Source: Croceivirga sp. (GTDB lineage Bacteria; Bacteroidota; Bacteroidia; Flavobacteriales; Flavobacteriaceae). From it: 64,000 nucleotides of DNA. The notes under the pieces are model-generated. The model was given only the letters and a program-made list of their open reading frames with translations. It had not been told where the DNA came from and searched no databases. Of the stretch, positions 16,240 through 46,560 are shown in pieces. Each line of letters begins with the position of its first letter. The stretch's first letter is position 1. Position numbers and translations under genes: made by a program. The stretch covers positions 1-64,000 of the forward strand of contig JANQQQ010000016.1 in the NCBI GenBank assembly GCA_028284935.1, in the 5' to 3' direction.

Positions 16240-16266
16240 TATTTGGATTTCTCCCTACATTTAAGA

Positions 16267-17514
16267 ATGCAAAAATTTAATGTATGTGAACTTTTTGCAG
16301 GTGTCGGTGGCTTTCGCCTGGGGCTTGAAGATACGGGGCGTTTTAGAGTTATTTGGAGCAATCAATGGGAGCCTTCCACCAAAACCCAACATGCTTCGAT
16401 AGTCTATGAGGCCCGCTTTGGAAATCAAAACCATTCCAATCAAAATATTGAAGAGGTACCAACACATGAAATTCCCGACCATGATGTTTTGGTCGGGGGG
16501 TTTCCTTGTCAAGACTACTCCGTGGCAACAACCCTTAACAACTCCAAAGGGCTATTAGGTAAAAAAGGGGTGTTATGGTGGTCCATTTACCGCATCCTAA
16601 AGGAAAAAGCAAATAAACCCCACTATCTCATTTTGGAGAACGTAGACCGTTTGTTGAAATCCCCGGCAAGTCAACGCGGCCGTGATTTTGCCGTAATGCT
16701 CAAAGGGCTTTCTGATTTGGGCTATACTGTGGAATGGCGGGTCATTAATGCAGCGGATTATGGCTTTCCGCAACGAAGAAGAAGGGTTTTTTTGGTGGGC
16801 TATCATAAATCATCTGTTCTATACAAAGTCCTTTTAAAACAGGATAAAAAGGATTGGATATGTAATCTAGGGGTTATGGCCCACGCTTTTCCAACTGCTC
16901 GTAATGATAGTAATTTATCCAATTTTTATTTAGAAGGTGATTTCGTTGCACTATCAGACAGCTTTAACAAGAATCAAAAAACATCCCCTTTTGAGAATTC
17001 TGGTATTTGCGTTCACGACAAGGTTTCCACGCTAAAAATTAGTCCCTCTCATGATGGAGTGGCTTCACCCTTGGCTTCCGTACTACAGAACGGAGAGGTC
17101 ACCGATGATTTTTTCATTCCAGAGGAAGATTTGCCCAAATGGGAATATCTTAAAGGTAGTAAGAAGGAAATGCGCACCACAAAAGAAGGTTTTCAATACC
17201 ATTACTCCGAAGGACATATGGTTTTTCCTGATGCACTTGATCAACCTTCTAGAACCATTATTACTGGGGAAGGAGGTAAATCCCCTTCACGATTCAAACA
17301 TGTGGTTGCTACCCGAAAAGGACTAAGACGGCTTACCCCAATAGAATTGGAGCGTTTAAATGGGTTTCCTGATGACCATACCAAATTGGATGGTATTACG
17401 GATACCAAACGAGCGTTTTTTATGGGGAATGCCTTGGTGGTAGGCATAGTTAAAAAAATAGGGGAAGCCCTTGTTTTTAAATTGTCCGAAATTCAAGAGG
17501 AATCAAAAGTTTAG
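16267..17514 (+). CDS. DNA (cytosine-5-)-methyltransferase, apparently orphan
   Basis: All main C5-methyltransferase motifs are present in order: motif I CELFAGVGGF, motif IV GGFPCQDYS with catalytic Cys81, motif VI LENVDRL, motif VIII QRRRRVFLVG (from residue 169), a target-recognition region (about 190-330), then SRTIITGEGG, LTPIELERLNGFPDD and MGNALVVGIV. From ATG 16267 it is 415 aa; a TTG at 16243 is possible but adds eight atypical residues. No endonuclease, Vsr or specificity gene is adjacent, so it looks solitary. It follows the S41 protease and converges on the GNAT gene with a 1-bp gap. Target sequence unknown. Confidence 0.92.
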   Translation: MQKFNVCELFAGVGGFRLGLEDTGRFRVIWSNQWEPSTKTQHASIVYEARFGNQNHSNQNIEEVPTHEIPDHDVLVGGFPCQDYSVATTLNNSKGLLGKKGVLWWSIYRILKEKANKPHYLILENVDRLLKSPASQRGRDFAVMLKGLSDLGYTVEWRVINAADYGFPQRRRRVFLVGYHKSSVLYKVLLKQDKKDWICNLGVMAHAFPTARNDSNLSNFYLEGDFVALSDSFNKNQKTSPFENSGICVHDKVSTLKISPSHDGVASPLASVLQNGEVTDDFFIPEEDLPKWEYLKGSKKEMRTTKEGFQYHYSEGHMVFPDALDQPSRTIITGEGGKSPSRFKHVVATRKGLRRLTPIELERLNGFPDDHTKLDGITDTKRAFFMGNALVVGIVKKIGEALVFKLSEIQEESKV

Positions 17515-18875: not shown

Positions 18876-19307
18876 TTAAATACAGGGAATCTTTTCTATC
18901 CGTCGTTCATGACGTCCTCCTTCAAATGACGTTTTCAAAAAGGTCTCGACCATTTCCAAAGCCTGTGGAAGTGCTATGAACCGAGCAGGTAAGCTTAATA
19001 TATTTGCATCATTATGTGTTCTTGCCAAGGCGGTCAACTCCTTGTTCCAGCATAAAGCCCCGCGAATGCCCTGATGCTTGTTAATGGTCATCGTAGCGCC
19101 ATTTCCCGTTCCGCAAATTACAATACCCATATCCACATTTCCCTGTTCCACGTCCATGGCTACCGGATGGACAAAATCTGGATAATCGACACTATCGGTT
19201 CCATCAGTACCATAATTGACCACCTCTATGTTCTTTGATTTCAAAAGACCTACAATAGCCAATTTATACTCTGTTCCCGCGTGGTCGTTTCCAATTGCTA
19301 TTTTCAT
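18876..19307 (-). CDS. rpiB: Ribose-5-phosphate isomerase B
   Basis: This 143-aa protein matches RpiB/LacAB: start MKIAIGNDHAG, VNYGTDGTDSVDYPDF, and the active-site loop GIVICGTGNGATMTINK containing the catalytic Cys. A conserved DANILSLPARF follows. It interconverts ribose 5-phosphate and ribulose 5-phosphate in the non-oxidative pentose phosphate pathway. It is the first gene of the leftward operon next to the large AT-rich gap. Confidence 0.95.
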   Translation of the reverse strand: MKIAIGNDHAGTEYKLAIVGLLKSKNIEVVNYGTDGTDSVDYPDFVHPVAMDVEQGNVDMGIVICGTGNGATMTINKHQGIRGALCWNKELTALARTHNDANILSLPARFIALPQALEMVETFLKTSFEGGRHERRIEKIPCI

Positions 19308-19876
19308 GGCGAAATATTAGGTTAGGTTCATGACAAAGGTACAATTCTTTCAAAGTCGGATGGTTAATATTTCATGGAACAATTTTCCCATTCGTTAAAA
19401 ATCAACTTCTTAGGGTTTTTGTCCATTGTTCATATTCAGTAGAAAAAAAGGAACGAAATAATTTGTTTTCTTTCCGTTAAATTAACATTACCACTTTTTA
19501 CATAATATTAAATCAATATTTCATTAATTTTTAATGAACATTTATCCTCTTTTTTCTAACGCTAATTAACATAAAATCAAAACTAAGTTTTCCATAAATT
19601 CATGTTGATTCCACTTGTTAAACAATGTTGAAAAAAGGGATAATTCGTTGGTTATTACATTTTTCAATCATTCATAAACTGTGAACAAAAAAGAATGTTT
19701 GTTCAACACAATCTTTTAAAGAAATATTTATTCCCATTATCCACAGACCATCACTATCATCATCATTTTTTAAAAATTAATATAAAAAAGGGAAATAATT
19801 AATTGTATGTTGATAAAACGAAGAGATTTCTTAAAAGTAGTCTAGTTCAATAATTCGTAATTTCCCTCAAACTTTT
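19308..19876. other. Candidate chromosomal replication origin (AT-rich gap with DnaA-box-like sites)
   Basis: This is the largest gene-free gap in the window (569 bp), strongly AT-rich, between divergently transcribed rpiB and rnr. It holds a perfect DnaA box TTATCCACA at 19737-19745 and near matches on the other strand: TTGTTCACA (19680-19688), TTTTCAACA (19626-19634), TTATCAACA (19808-19816) and GAATCAACA (19603-19611). A-and-T tracts at about 19766-19805 could serve as an unwinding element. Two perfect parS sites lie about 25-27 kb away. No ORF or RNA gene was recognised in it. The origin call is inference. Confidence 0.5.
19334..19341 (-). promoter_or_regulatory. -7 promoter box for rpiB operon
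   Basis: TACCTTTG on the minus strand matches TAnnTTTG, 26 nt upstream of the rpiB ATG. No exact -33 box at standard distance. Confidence 0.45.
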
Positions 19877-22072
19877 ATGTGGATGTCCAAGAGAAAAAAG
19901 AGGGCAAGAAGTCAGCGAAAAAATGAGATTACCAAAGGGATTTTCACCGTTTTGGAAGCTGAGCCCAATAAATCGTTCAACTATAAACAAATAGCTTCGA
20001 AACTTGGTATTACAGATACTAAGGGTCGGAATGATTTAATCCAACGTTTGGCACAATTAAAGGTAAAGGACCGTATTATGGAAGCGGAGCGGGGGAAGTA
20101 TAAAAAGAAACCTTCGAATAGGGTTATCATTAGGGGAAGGGTTGATTTGGCCAATAATGGAAATGCCTATATCATTACCGAGGATTCTGACCAGGATATC
20201 TTTGTTCCAAATAGCCAATTGAATAAAGCTTTTCATGGTGATACCGTTGAAGTTCTTTTGAAGAACAGAAGAAACGGGAGGCGACCAGAAGGTAGGGTTT
20301 CAAAGGTTTTGGAGCGTAAAAAGGATAAATATGTTGGTATTGTGGAAAAACACAAAACATTTGTATTTGTAAGACCAACGGATCCTAAAATGTACACTGA
20401 TATTTTTGTTCCATTGGAGCGGTCAAAAAAAGCGGAAGACGGAACCAAAGTTTTAGTGGAGTTGGGGGATTGGCCGGAAGAGGCCGATTCTCCCTACGGT
20501 ACGATCATGGAAATATTGGGAATGCCAGGGGAACATCAAACGGAGATTCATTCCATTCTCGCTGAATACGGTCTCCCTTATGAATTTCCCTATGAGGTGG
20601 AACAATTTGCAAACACTTTGGATACCTCCATCAAAGATGAAGAAATAGCGAAGCGCAGGGATATGCGTGATATTCTCACCTTTACCATAGATCCGAAAGA
20701 TGCTAAGGATTTTGATGATGCCCTGTCCTTTCAAAGATTGGAAAACGGAAATTTTGAAATAGGGGTACATATCGCCGATGTTTCGCACTACTTAACCCCG
20801 GGTTCCATTCTAGATGATGAAGCATTTAATCGAGCGACTTCGGTGTACTTGGTGGACCGGGTGGTTCCTATGCTTCCTGAGATATTGTCGAATAATGCCT
20901 GTTCGTTGCGGCCCAAGGAAGAAAAATATACATTTTCTGCGGTTTTTGAAATGGATGAAAACGCCAAGGTCAAAAGCCAATGGTTCGGAAGAACCGTGAT
21001 ATTGTCTGACGAACGATTTGCCTATGAAGAAGCGCAGCATATTATAGAAACGCGTTCCAATAGTATTCCTGATGATATTTCCATTAGGGAAAGTGCTTAC
21101 GATATTTCTAATGAAATTAAGGAAGCTGTTTTACAACTGGATGTACTGGCCAAAATTATGCGGGAGAAGCGTATGGATTCCGGTGCCATTTCTTTTGATA
21201 AAATAGAGGTCAAGTTTAATTTGGATCAAGAAAAGAATCCCGAAAGTGTATTCTTCAAGGAATCCAAGGACGCCAATAAATTGATTGAGGAATTTATGTT
21301 GTTGGCCAATAGAAAGGTGGCTGAATATGTGGGCAAACAGAAATCAAAAAAGACCTTTGTTTACCGTGTACATGACGAACCTGATATCGATAAATTGATG
21401 GCATTGAATGGGGTGATTTCAAGGTTTGGGCATAGTGTTGATCTACGTGATAGAAAATCAATAAATGGTTCTTTGAACCGCCTGTTGAATGATGTAAAGG
21501 GTAAAAAAGAGCAAAATTTAGTGGATACCCTGGCGATTCGAAGCATGAGTAAAGCAGTGTATACTACGGATAATATTGGACATTATGGATTGGCTTTTGA
21601 TTTTTACACTCATTTTACCTCCCCAATTAGAAGATATCCGGATGTGATGGTGCATCGTTTACTGCAGCATTATTTAAACGATGGAACAACCAAAAATGAA
21701 ACGGTTTATGAGGAACAATGCCAGCATTCCTCAAATATGGAACTATTGGCGGCCAATGCAGAGCGGGATTCCATTAAATACATGCAGATTAAGTTTATGG
21801 AAGACCATTCCGATAAGGAGTTTGTTGGCGTCATTTCTGGGGTAACGGAATGGGGAGTTTATGTTGAAATTATAGAAAATAAGTGTGAAGGAATGGTTCG
21901 TATTCGTGATATTAAGGACGATTATTATGTTTTTGATGAACGGCAATACGCTATAATTGGAGAGCGGTTCAAAGAAATGTATCAGTTAGGGGATGAGGTC
22001 ATTGTTATGGTAAAAAATACTGATTTGGTAAAACGACACTTAGATTTTACTTTGTTGGGTAGAAACGAATAA
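19877..22072 (+). CDS. rnr: Ribonuclease R
   Basis: This 731-aa protein has the RNase II/R architecture: an N-terminal winged-helix region (about residues 15-70), cold-shock domains (about 75-230), the RNB catalytic domain with acidic cluster TIDPKDAKDFDDALSF and HYGLAFDFYTHFTSPIRRYPD, and a C-terminal S1 domain (about 645-725, FVGVISGVTEWGVYVEI). It degrades structured RNA 3' to 5'. An ATG at 19883 is an equally good start. It reads away from the candidate origin. Confidence 0.96.
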   Translation: MWMSKRKKRARSQRKNEITKGIFTVLEAEPNKSFNYKQIASKLGITDTKGRNDLIQRLAQLKVKDRIMEAERGKYKKKPSNRVIIRGRVDLANNGNAYIITEDSDQDIFVPNSQLNKAFHGDTVEVLLKNRRNGRRPEGRVSKVLERKKDKYVGIVEKHKTFVFVRPTDPKMYTDIFVPLERSKKAEDGTKVLVELGDWPEEADSPYGTIMEILGMPGEHQTEIHSILAEYGLPYEFPYEVEQFANTLDTSIKDEEIAKRRDMRDILTFTIDPKDAKDFDDALSFQRLENGNFEIGVHIADVSHYLTPGSILDDEAFNRATSVYLVDRVVPMLPEILSNNACSLRPKEEKYTFSAVFEMDENAKVKSQWFGRTVILSDERFAYEEAQHIIETRSNSIPDDISIRESAYDISNEIKEAVLQLDVLAKIMREKRMDSGAISFDKIEVKFNLDQEKNPESVFFKESKDANKLIEEFMLLANRKVAEYVGKQKSKKTFVYRVHDEPDIDKLMALNGVISRFGHSVDLRDRKSINGSLNRLLNDVKGKKEQNLVDTLAIRSMSKAVYTTDNIGHYGLAFDFYTHFTSPIRRYPDVMVHRLLQHYLNDGTTKNETVYEEQCQHSSNMELLAANAERDSIKYMQIKFMEDHSDKEFVGVISGVTEWGVYVEIIENKCEGMVRIRDIKDDYYVFDERQYAIIGERFKEMYQLGDEVIVMVKNTDLVKRHLDFTLLGRNE

Positions 22073-43700: not shown

Positions 43701-44258
43701 AATGGGGAACAAGGAGGAAGTCAAAATGGGGGTAATACGGGTCAGGAAGGCGAAGGTCAGTCGGGGAATGAAGGAGAGAATGGAGGTTCTAAGGAAGGAT
43801 TGGAAGGGGGCAATGGCCAGGGAATAACAGAAGCTCAACTCAAAGAGATTTATGAAATCTATCAAGAACAACAGACGATACGTAAAGCATTGGAGGAACA
43901 GCTGAAAAACATTATTGATGCTGACAAGCGTGATTTAGCTAAGAAATTGACACTTCAGATGGAGCAGTTTGAGAACGAATTACTGGAAAACGGCATTACC
44001 GAACGGACGGAAAATAGGATAAATCAAATCCAGCATCAACTGTTGAAATTGGAAAACGCTGCGTTGAAACAGGGAGAGAAGAAGGAACGAGAAAGTGACA
44101 CAAACAAAAGGGATTACAGCGCGCCGATTCTTACAAAACCCGAGTTGCTAGTCCCTAAGAACAACGAGATTGAGATTTTAAACCGACAAGCATTACCTTT
44201 GCGCCCTGATTATCAGAACAAGGTGAAGGAATATTTCGGTAATGGGAATCAATTATAA
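40773..44258 (+). CDS. DUF4175-like membrane protein with Gly/Gln/Glu-rich tail
   Basis: This 1161-aa protein has two or three N-terminal membrane segments (about residues 35-55, 60-90 and 150-172), a beta-rich region (about 195-480), a long coiled coil (about 490-760, very Glu/Lys/Gln rich), another helical domain (about 790-905) and a low-complexity Gly/Gln/Glu/Ser tract (about 910-1025) before a final coiled coil. It fits the DUF4175 proteins of Bacteroidota; function unknown. Translation starts at TTG 40773. It overlaps ybeY by 17 nt. Confidence 0.75.
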   Translation: MEERKRALGNFEHIVAKLETFSKKYYTKVLTKGILLFSTFGLLLFLMVTGAEFLLWLSPTVRLVLFFGFFLAVVVLAYQYIIVPIFYLLKVRKGIDEKQASTLIGKHFPKIGDRLLNLLELSESPEKSDLLLAAIEQRSAELKSLPFSEAVNLKDSLRYGRFLIIPLLLIGVVWASGSIAEFVSSYKRVVNYDVAYEPPAPFQFVLQNEKLSVLEDNPMTISVIMAGETLPESVVIELDEGPMLMQNKGGGIHEFVVQPPITDFTFRFRANEVASRVYDVEAIKVPAITDFTLNIDYPGYLKLNDKEIRGTGNITVPEGSRITWSLEGINTTGIEFITADTIIAFERAEEKFKYSNRVFDAIQYELATSNDKVNQYERLGYRLNVVKDQSPQIRVEQLQDSLQPNEMYFSGAVSDDNEVSKVDLVYYFAESPKDKNRLALLRPNSNVAQFYYTFPSGVPVQKGKDYEFYFEARDNDGLRWGKVAQSQIFKTAILDDKQLKDKQIQNKEALIKNFNKGLDDLQKQNEELREINTEQKQEGNLEYRDKERIKQFLNKQKQQEQLMEKFSRDLRNNLQEEQRSDEQNQLLQERLERQELEAKKNQKLLEELEKVADKIEREELKKRLEELSKSQSSGKRNLEQLLELTKRYYVTEKAAQLGQKLDALSKEQEELSKLRLGEDFSNKEQEKLNGEFNDISKELDELKGDNRALKKPMDLDYNKNQQESIRKDQEDALEEINRHQGEQKTSADSRERKEIENRAAQKQKSAAQKMKELSEGLQNSMSGAGGGSSIVEDAEMLRQILDNVITFSFEQENLLEVVNQNVEIGEFSSTVRKQKELQQLFEHVDDSLFSLSLRRAELSEFVNEQITEVYYNVDKALESIADNQIYQAASYQQYVLNASNSLADFLADILDNMQQSMMSGQGQGQGEGFQLPDIIKKQGDLQEKMEEGSESGDQGEQGKGQSGQQGRGSGEGQEGENGEQGGSQNGGNTGQEGEGQSGNEGENGGSKEGLEGGNGQGITEAQLKEIYEIYQEQQTIRKALEEQLKNIIDADKRDLAKKLTLQMEQFENELLENGITERTENRINQIQHQLLKLENAALKQGEKKERESDTNKRDYSAPILTKPELLVPKNNEIEILNRQALPLRPDYQNKVKEYFGNGNQL

Positions 44259-44664
44259 CTACGAGACCGATTTTGTCTTGACCAATGAGGAGGAGTATTC
44301 CGATTGGATAGATAGGGTTTTGGAATCGGAAGGTTTTGGAATCGGGGAGTTGTCCTATGTATTCTGTAATGATAGCTACTTACTGGACTTGAATCAACGA
44401 TTTCTTAATCACGAAACACTCACGGATATTATCACCTTTGATTATTGTGAGGGTAACAGAGCCTCCGGGGATATTTTTATATCTGTTGAGAGAGTTCATG
44501 AAAATGCTGACATACATGAAGCTGAATTTGAACTGGAATTGAAAAGGGTAATGGTTCATGGGGTGTTGCACCTTATGGGTTACACTGACAAGTCTGAAAG
44601 GGAGGTTCAGCGAATGCGTCAAAAGGAAGAAGAAAAGATGAAACTGTTCCACGTGGAACACTAG
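44242..44664 (+). CDS. ybeY: Endoribonuclease YbeY (16S rRNA maturation)
   Basis: This 140-aa protein has the UPF0054 metal-site motif in VMVHGVLHLMGYTDK. H106 and H110 are kept, while the third ligand position is D116 rather than the His seen in E. coli. The remaining pattern (LTDIITFDYCEG, SGDIFISVERV) fits YbeY, which matures 16S rRNA 3' ends and takes part in ribosome quality control. Its last codons (LFHVEH) coincide with a perfect parS palindrome. mnmG starts 3 nt after its stop. Confidence 0.93.
   Translation: MGINYNYETDFVLTNEEEYSDWIDRVLESEGFGIGELSYVFCNDSYLLDLNQRFLNHETLTDIITFDYCEGNRASGDIFISVERVHENADIHEAEFELELKRVMVHGVLHLMGYTDKSEREVQRMRQKEEEKMKLFHVEH
44645..44660. other. parS site 1 (ParB binding), inside ybeY 3' end
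   Basis: TGTTCCACGTGGAACA is a perfect 16-bp palindrome matching the chromosomal parS consensus TGTTnCACGTGnAACA. It overlaps the final ybeY codons, 7 nt before the mnmG ATG. Confidence 0.85.
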
Positions 44665-44667
44665 GTT

Positions 44668-46536
44668 ATGTTTGAAAAGGAATACGATGTAATTGTAGTG
44701 GGGGGAGGCCATGCAGGCGCGGAAGCAACTGCTGCGGCCGCTAATATGGGGTCAAGGACCTTGCTGGTAACAATGAACTTACAAACCATTGGCCAAATGT
44801 CCTGTAACCCGGCAATGGGCGGCATTGCCAAAGGACAAATAGTACGAGAGATAGATGCGTTGGGGGGCTATAGCGGTATTGTTACCGATAGGTCGGCCAT
44901 CCAATTTAAGATGCTGAACAAATCCAAGGGTCCGGCCATGTGGAGCCCTAGGGCCCAGAATGACCGTATGCGTTTTGCAGAAGAGTGGCGATTGCTATTG
45001 GAGCAGACACCAAATGTGGATTTTTACCAAGAAATGGTTTCCGGTCTTCTGGTGGATGGCAATAAGGTGGTAGGTGTAAGGACCTCATTGGGAATTGACA
45101 TCAAGGGAAAGGCAGTTGTTCTTACCAATGGAACTTTTTTAAACGGATTGATTCATATTGGCGAAAAGCAATTTGGCGGAGGTAGGGCTGGTGAACGTGC
45201 AGCTACTGGGATTACCGAACAATTGGTGGACATAGGCTTTGATAGTGGAAGAATGAAGACCGGGACACCGCCTAGGGTGGATGGGCGCTCTTTGGATTAC
45301 ACCCAAATGATTCCCCAACCTGGGGATAGTCATCCGGAAAAGTTTTCATATATCGATACTCCAAAACTGAAAGAGCAACGGGATTGCCATATGACACACA
45401 CCAGTGCGCTGGTGCATGATTTGTTGCGAGAGGGCTTTGATCGATCACCCATGTTCAATGGAAGAATAAAAAGTATAGGGCCCAGATATTGCCCATCCAT
45501 TGAAGACAAAATTCATAGGTTTTCGGAAAAAGAAGCGCATCAAATATTTGTAGAACCGGAGGGTTGGAATACGGTAGAGGTCTATGTAAATGGTTTTTCC
45601 ACCTCCTTGCCAGAAGATATTCAGTTCAAAGCACTCCGCTCCGTAAAGGGATTCGAACAGGTAAAGTTCTTTAGGCCAGGTTATGCTATTGAGTACGACT
45701 ATTTTCCTCCCACACAATTAAAACACACTTTGGAAACCAAGTTGATCCGCAATTTATATTTTGCTGGTCAGATAAATGGGACCACGGGATATGAAGAAGC
45801 GGCATCCCAAGGGCTGATGGCAGGAATCAATGCCCATTTGCGTGTTAATGAAAAGGAACCGTTTATTCTAAAAAGGGACGAAGCCTACATAGGAGTGCTG
45901 ATTGACGACTTAATTACCAAAGGCACCGAGGAACCCTATCGAATGTTTACCTCACGGGCGGAATACCGTACCCTGTTGCGGCAGGACAATGCTGACATTA
46001 GACTAACACCGAAAGGCTTTGAATTGGGATTGGCCAAAGAAGAGCGAATGCATAGAATGGAAGAAAAAAGGAAAAAATCAAAGGATTTTGTTGAATTCTT
46101 TAGAAAAACCAGCTTTTCTCCAAAGGAAATCAATCCAATTTTGGAGGAAGTGGGTTCTGCCAAAGTAAAGCAATCGGACAAAATGTTCAAGGTATTTTCC
46201 AGGCCAAAAGTAACTATGGACCATATGATGCGGCTGAGTTCCGTCTCTGAGTATGTAAGTAACCATACACTCAATGCTGAAATATTGGAACAAGCCGAGG
46301 TGCAGGTGAAGTACTCTGGGTACATTGAAAAGGAAAAAAACAACGCGGACAAACTCCAACGATTGGAGAATATCAAAATCCCGGAGGATTTTGATTATAC
46401 AAAACTGAAATCCCTTTCCTCGGAAGCAAGGGAGAAACTTCAGGAAATACGACCCATAACCATTTCACAAGCGTCAAGAATAAGCGGAGTTTCACCTTCG
46501 GATGTAAGTGTGCTCTTGGTTTTTTTGGGCAGATGA
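44668..46536 (+). CDS. mnmG: tRNA uridine-5-carboxymethylaminomethyl modification enzyme MnmG
   Basis: This 622-aa FAD protein has the dinucleotide-binding start [17 protein letters not shown]-like ([20 protein letters not shown]), the GidA signatures [20 protein letters not shown] and RTGTPPR-type [31 protein letters not shown], and the helical C-terminal MnmE-binding domain ending [18 protein letters not shown]. With MnmE it makes cmnm5U34 in tRNAs. It is bracketed by two identical parS palindromes. In many bacteria this gene lies close to oriC. Confidence 0.97.
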
Positions 46537-46544
46537 GCCCGTTT

Positions 46545-46560
46545 TGTTCCACGTGGAACA
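46545..46560. other. parS site 2 (ParB binding), downstream of mnmG
   Basis: An identical copy of TGTTCCACGTGGAACA begins 9 nt after the mnmG stop codon, in the 77-bp gap before the next gene. The pair are 1900 bp apart. Confidence 0.87.

Follow-up and report, generated by a model that had tools for sequence, protein, structure and literature searches.

The 64,000-nucleotide stretch of Croceivirga sp. DNA analysed here (the window; bases 1-64000 of the 394,423-base contig C36) contains two copies of the 16-bp palindrome TGTTCCACGTGGAACA, one on each side of the gene mnmG. These copies are very probably chromosomal parS (centromere) sites, located about 25 kb from the likely replication origin (oriC) and away from dnaA. 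The predicted sites and the genes adjoining them are:

44645-44660: predicted parS site 1, a perfect 16-bp palindrome within the 3' end of ybeY (exact match; conserved upstream of mnmG in relatives)
46545-46560: predicted parS site 2, a perfect 16-bp palindrome past the mnmG stop (exact match; conserved downstream of mnmG in relatives)
44242-44664, + strand: ybeY, rRNA maturation RNase (TIGR00043, E 6.1e-28; PF02130)
44668-46536, + strand: mnmG (gidA), between the two parS sites (TIGR00136, E 8.6e-253)

A preliminary description of this DNA had reported two copies of the 16-mer matching the chromosomal parS consensus, and both matches were found to be exact over the whole palindrome. Site 1 is intragenic and covers the last codons of ybeY (the protein ends in ...KLFHVEH), and eight spacer bases separate the mnmG stop codon from site 2. 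The genome-wide search for clustering that the same description had proposed was performed on all 4,229,148 bases (38 contigs, completeness 99.99), and it returned just these two copies, lying together 1.9 kb apart in 4.23 Mb. No other place was detected with up to two mismatches, and the reversed word, used as control, had one place in the same genome. Apparently these two are all the parS sites that the genome has. From composition alone about 0.0008 exact copies of a 16-mer are expected per genome (42% GC assumed). Because shuffling of the window gave two or more matches in 5 of 100 cases when up to three mismatches were allowed (mean 0.27), it is the exactness of the two copies that rules out chance. 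The possibility that the segment derives from a plasmid was rejected, as it had no match among 72,556 plasmid records (search in 'near' mode).

The preliminary description had named the lack of a parB gene as an argument against its reading; the gene is present, with parA beside it. A single ParB_N match with E <=0.001 was found in the genome (C13:197908-198186, E 9.6e-34), in a frame of 304 amino acids (aa) which has further matches to HTH_ParB (E 1.4e-36) and, only weakly, to ParB_C. The protein scored 168.6 bits with TIGR00180 (cut-off 58.45), its best match in PDB was a ParB family protein (1.4e-53), and the CTP-binding motif GERRxRA is present in its translation as GERRFRA. The 257-aa open reading frame directly upstream of parB encodes the adjoining ParA ATPase (PF13614, E 6.1e-69; PF01656, over cut-off), all its matches to the ParA-type models of NCBIfam being under their respective cut-offs. 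According to the parts of PMC7383237 covered, parS is contacted by R173 and G201, which ParB proteins conserve and for which Noc has Q and R. In the numbering of that paper, applied by spacing from the GKxR motif, the Croceivirga ParB has Q162, G170, K171, R173, N178, G201 and R204, that is, the residues of a cognate ParB that reads parS; position 172 is K here, S being named in the covered parts of PMC7383237. Residues R173, N178, G201 and R204 were retained in 22 of 25 ParB loci as picked by a motif filter, and the remaining three, missed by the filter, were counted neither way. The parA and parB genes (L003, C13:196408-199686) are on another contig than the parS pair, and in seven relatives with single-contig or near-single-contig genomes the distance between parB and the sites is at least about 0.8 Mb.

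Conservation of the sites was determined by two surveys. The site-first survey covered 60 genomes, including that of Croceivirga, with at most one mismatch allowed, and a site was found in 48 of them. Among the 37 genomes of the same family (own genome included) 26 had exactly two sites, six had one, three had none, and one each had three and five. The pair was on one contig in 25 of the 26 two-site genomes and split over two contigs in the other. The spacing of the one-contig pairs was 1,893-2,018 bp in 24 of 25 cases and 473 bp in the relative G033. That the spacing hardly varies is accounted for by the size of mnmG and the tight packing of the genes. In the fetched loci of relatives mnmG adjoined a site in 28 of 29; in L009, which is from G033, mnmG was not found within the 3-kb locus around the sites.

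For the gene-first survey the best 80 of at least 590 relatives by MnmG similarity were taken, a choice independent of the sites. The upstream zone comprised 400 bp before mnmG, the downstream zone extended from 60 bp before to 1.2 kb after its stop codon, and in four loci (L220, L229, L258 and L263) the flanks were shorter than these zones. With up to two mismatches a site was present upstream in 75 and downstream in 70 of the 80 loci, and on both sides in 67, in agreement with the expectation that the sites would be conserved beside mnmG in other Flavobacteriaceae; neither side had a site in L257 and L260. Exact copies were present on both sides in 17 loci, only upstream in 18, only downstream in 3 and on neither side in 42. 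Across the 1,582,519 bases of these loci the reversed word was absent even when two mismatches were allowed. The records include Flagellimonas, Maribacter, Arenibacter, Winogradskyella, Tenacibaculum and Chryseobacterium, and a few are named after other groups. One record, named as a Limnohabitans metagenome-assembled genome (MAG; L214), has a flavobacterium-like mnmG (76% identity) and is probably misnamed or misbinned.

Information content was 1.0-2.0 bits across the 16 positions of the site and, with the exception of one position (1.04), below 0.9 in the flanks, so that conservation falls off at the edges of the 16 bp; the values were obtained from 74 upstream and 70 downstream sites selected at two mismatches or fewer, which raises the inside values. 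Three Flavobacterium loci carry 6 to 12 parS-like copies upstream of mnmG: six within 400 bp in L220, five with another two beyond that distance in L221, and three with another nine beyond it in L219. In L219 TGTTCCACATGGAACA or a near copy of it recurs about every 117 bp. In two other loci (L213, a Kordia MAG, and the flavobacterial L237) all sites upstream of mnmG are of the TGTTCCACATGGAACA type, and the downstream side has no site with up to two mismatches, which may reflect a shifted ParB preference. Beyond the order but within the class, mnmG adjoined the site in 13 and not in 9 of 22 site-found loci among the matches listed. At the level of the phylum 155 of 392 genomes had a match, a count that is not evidence of absence in the rest because the common form TGTTTCACGTGAAACA differs from the pattern searched at two positions.

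A third, degenerate site was considered and rejected. The candidates were TCTTCCACGTGAAACA, located +6.4 to +7.4 kb away in 5 of the 80 loci, and TGTTCCACAAGGAACA, located near -2.9 kb in three Tenacibaculum loci; both lie in long open frames encoding like peptides (LPRETAGY and VPQGT) and were classified as coding coincidences. A second TGTTCCACAAGGAACA occurs in L242, 85 bp past mnmG, and the coding explanation does not account for this second copy.

The overlap of site 1 with ybeY has left a mark on the gene. Among 78 loci with ybeY, 39 had a tail of the FHVE type, which is parS read in that frame, three had V(S/P)R(E/G), which is parS in another frame, and 36 had neither. In the FHVE-type tails the codons were CAC in 39/39, GTG in 37/37, GAA in 35/35 and TTC in 30/39 cases; the background in ybeY plus mnmG was 336/1037 (32%), 511/3276 (16%), 3748/4954 (76%) and 597/2781 (21%), respectively. 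Fisher values for the tail codons ranged from 6e-5 to 4e-30 and are overstated, as kin genomes were treated as independent. The ybeY tail codons are biased to spell parS, indicating selection at the level of DNA.

Because the preliminary description had also suggested that the window is origin-proximal, the position of the sites was compared with dnaA and with GC skew. In Croceivirga dnaA is on another contig (C13). Relatives were taken as closed when one contig held the whole listed length, circularity being assumed. In six such genomes the distance between dnaA and the sites, as a fraction of the circle, was 0.237 (G024), 0.345 (G035), 0.379 (G034), 0.415 (G002), 0.493 (G033) and 0.495 (G049), and two of the six records start at dnaA. 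G031, a single contig with a rounded size of 4.0 Mb, was left out of this count; its fraction is about 0.47. Skew was sampled in twenty 20-kb stretches in each of five relatives, both as third-position skew corrected for gene strand and as raw cumulative skew. In G024 the corrected skew turned from negative in the sample at 0.885 Mb to positive in that at 1.08 Mb (sites at 0.932 Mb); the same turn was seen from the 0.64-Mb to the 0.78-Mb sample in G049 (sites at 0.749 Mb) and across the record start in G035 (sites at 0.016 Mb). In none of the five did the corrected skew turn positive at dnaA. In G002 it changed between 2.42 and 2.70 Mb, with the sites at 2.36 Mb. A change of skew at the parS pair is clear in G024, G035 and G049, G033 is compatible with it, and G002 is ambiguous. 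The cumulative minimum in 5-kb bins, not corrected for strand, was near 920 kb in G024, where rnr runs from about 911.8 kb and the sites are at 932 kb; in G035 it preceded rnr by about 9 kb, near 3.526 Mb. The Croceivirga contig fits: left of 19.4 kb its third-position skew was -0.039 for plus-strand and 0.000 for minus-strand genes, and from 19.4 kb to 120 kb it was +0.055 and +0.129, respectively. Origin proximity, which is indicated by skew only, was thus upheld for three relatives, one more being compatible and G002 ambiguous, with the correction that the origin lies elsewhere than dnaA.

A likely oriC is the divergent gap between rpiB and rnr:

19308-19876: candidate oriC, divergent rpiB-rnr gap of 569 bp, containing the most AT-rich 300 bp of the contig
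19737-19745, + strand: TTATCCACA, exact copy of the E. coli DnaA-box consensus
19808-19816, - strand: TTATCAACA, second DnaA-box-like 9-mer
18876-19307, - strand: rpiB, left border (TIGR01120, 143.8 bits, cut-off 138.65)
19877-22072, + strand: rnr, RNase R, right border (TIGR02063, E 1.6e-223)

The 300 bp with the highest AT content of the contig (77%) begin at 19501, inside this gap. Rnr was found in 19 sequences, with rpiB divergent in nine (own included), in line in seven and without an rpiB match in three. The nine divergent gaps were 0.5-2.0 kb long. When AT richness was scored in the 1.6 kb before rnr, the richest 300 bp had 77-87% AT in the divergent arrangement, 72-78% with rpiB in line and 82-83% without an rpiB match. 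Three contig stretches were scanned, and the gap was the most AT-rich part in those of Croceivirga and G035, not in that of G024. The distance from rnr to the nearest site was 6-54 kb in 21 of 22 genomes having both on one contig; in three of 25 genomes they were on different contigs. A cluster of E. coli-type DnaA boxes was considered and rejected, as exact TTATCCACA occurs five times in 394 kb and once in the gap. The looser word TTATNMACA was present in the gap twice in Croceivirga, four times in G024 and three times in G035 (shuffle means 0.17, 0.34 and 0.42, respectively), which is a lead only, the word having been picked after these gaps had been seen. The candidate is AT-rich and close to the skew change, but it has few DnaA boxes (two) and is at odds with G049; within this family the gap makes a good candidate, which does not amount to an order-wide rule. 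A gene for a DNA cytosine-5 methyltransferase (TIGR00675) is located close to the candidate origin, at 16243-17514.

By analogy with known systems we infer that the single ParB, encoded on the other contig, would load on each palindrome as a CTP-dependent clamp, that the clamps would slide over the ybeY-mnmG neighbourhood, and that the resulting complex would be pulled by ParA, whereby the new origins would separate. A role of parS as loading site of Smc-ScpAB would presuppose Smc and ScpA in the genome. Smc (TIGR02168) was over the cut-off in none of 11 genomes (own plus ten relatives), with weak matches in all 11, and ScpA (PF02616) had no match in any of them. In a control of 14 named genomes TIGR02168 was over the cut-off in ten and PF02616 gave matches in nine; the misses of the latter, which include Thermus and Deinobacterium, indicate that the model is not fully sensitive. 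PF02463 (SMC_N) had 16 matches in the Croceivirga genome. Two passed the cut-off, in frames of 552 and 359 aa whose sizes resemble those of RecN and RecF; a third, of 243 aa, passed only together with its neighbours. No match in the Croceivirga genome was obtained with the MukB model PF04310 (control 2/14) or with PF13835, presumably a JetB/MksE-type family (control 1/14). As none was found, ParABS apparently works here without Smc, ScpA and MukB; an unknown or distant condensin may exist. For the same reason the predicted ParB loading zone is not to be read as a condensin loading zone.

Palindromes next to gene ends could also act as RNA hairpins, serving as terminator or processing signal after mnmG and ybeY. 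Both fold as short hairpins, and a simple scan calls each terminator-like on one strand (four such sites in the 3-kb stretch, shuffle mean 3.3). A hairpin would tolerate any paired change, yet 9 of 16 positions were invariant in the downstream and 11 of 16 in the upstream sites, with variation mainly at the outer, fifth and twelfth positions (selection of rows at two mismatches or fewer inflates this invariance). A terminator at site 1 would halt transcription into mnmG, and the 16-mer is a known parS word found nowhere else in the genome, so that we consider the hairpin explanation very improbable. There is hardly more than a slim chance that a local transcription factor uses the sites as operators to control mnmG, the sites having no part in segregation. 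Their presence at both ends of one gene in most relatives examined would suit such a function, but the exact parS consensus occurs together with a parS-type ParB, the skew change tracks the sites and not dnaA in three of the five sampled relatives, G033 has its two sites 473 bp apart without mnmG found in the 3-kb locus, and the upstream site forms clusters in some relatives.

Another explanation accepts segregation and separates it from replication, the sites being a segregation centre away from the origin. The location of dnaA at 24-50% of the circle from the sites in the six relatives taken as closed, the small number of DnaA-box-like words in the candidate oriC (two in the own genome) and the ambiguous skew of G002 would be in line with this. 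It is very unlikely, since Bacteroidetes origins have been described as far from dnaA (parts covered of PMC4755523) and at parS clusters (parts covered of PMC10197239). A bolder version of the parS interpretation, which we regard as improbable, holds that the Flavobacteriaceae centromere is a fixed, condensin-free cassette of two sites around one gene, with the left site pinned by the end of ybeY and with a spacing that matters, e.g. in that ParB clamps would be trapped over mnmG. The Flavobacterium loci with clusters argue against an essential spacing, and one-gene spacing as a requirement is further weakened by the 473 bp of G033.

Several results weigh against parS sites beside the origin. 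The Noc model outscored the general ParB model on this ParB (239.3 versus 168.6 bits), its score being below the Noc cut-off of 315. Within the family 3 of 37 genomes were without a site at one mismatch or fewer and 6 of 37 had one, and in 13 of the 80 loci found by MnmG at least one side had no site. For G033 the raw cumulative minimum of the samples was at 1.10 Mb (sites at 0.999 Mb) with the corrected skew erratic until about 1.7 Mb, and in G002 the raw cumulative minimum was at 1.55 Mb, about 0.8 Mb from the sites. The break point used for the skew of the Croceivirga contig was picked after the rpiB-rnr gap had been seen, and in this 38-contig genome the own skew was taken from a single contig, which extends just 19 kb to the left of the candidate oriC. 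Rnr and the nearest site are about 194 kb apart in G049, where the change of skew tracks the sites and not rnr; because of this genome the assignment of oriC is less certain than that of parS. Overall the analysis supported the interpretation given in the preliminary description. Chromosomal parS sites beside the origin, an ordinary kind of element, are the best account. Unusual features are their fixed location around mnmG and away from parAB, the overlap of one site with ybeY, the remoteness of dnaA and the apparent lack of Smc-ScpAB.

For the Bacteroidetes it has already been published that origins can be far from dnaA and that parS is at the origin. Among the parts of papers covered, PMC4755523 states that oriC is commonly far from dnaA in this group, PMC2768785 describes a Blattabacterium origin located by skew in a genome without dnaA, and PMC9298525 cites parS near oriC in almost 70% of the studied chromosomes. 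Hi-C in PMC10197239 (parts covered) located parS clusters to the origin of Bacteroides caecimuris and of other gut strains; there the ori was taken as the skew change nearest to the parS cluster, in agreement with read coverage, origins were not always at dnaA, and no known condensin was reported in two Bacteroidetes strains. The bracket around mnmG, the overlap with ybeY and the candidate oriC were not found in print, in a literature search made mostly without subscription journals; PMC13342612, which contains 'parS site' and 'Flavobacteri', does not contain mnmG or gidA in the part covered. The parS pair provides a simple origin marker for a large bacterial group in which dnaA is far from the origin, as well as a natural case of ParB-parS apparently working without Smc-ScpAB, and ybeY offers an example of how a predicted DNA-binding site can shape the coding end of a gene.

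Compared with the ParABS systems of Bacillus subtilis (Spo0J) and Caulobacter (ParB), the Croceivirga system shares a 16-bp palindromic parS in few origin-proximal copies and a ParA-ParB pair with parS-type residues. It differs in that parA-parB is on another contig, the sites are with mnmG, and Smc and ScpA were not found. In many other bacteria mnmG, rsmG, parA and parB are together near the origin. The oriC of Prevotella intermedia (PMC4755523) was likewise placed by skew and boxes far from dnaA, parS not being mentioned in the parts of that paper covered. A further likeness is to Bacteroides caecimuris, a member of the same phylum, and the other gut strains of PMC10197239 (where the parts covered mention neither mnmG nor flavobacteria): parS is located at the origin, the origin does not always coincide with dnaA, and in the two Bacteroidetes of that study no known condensin was found.
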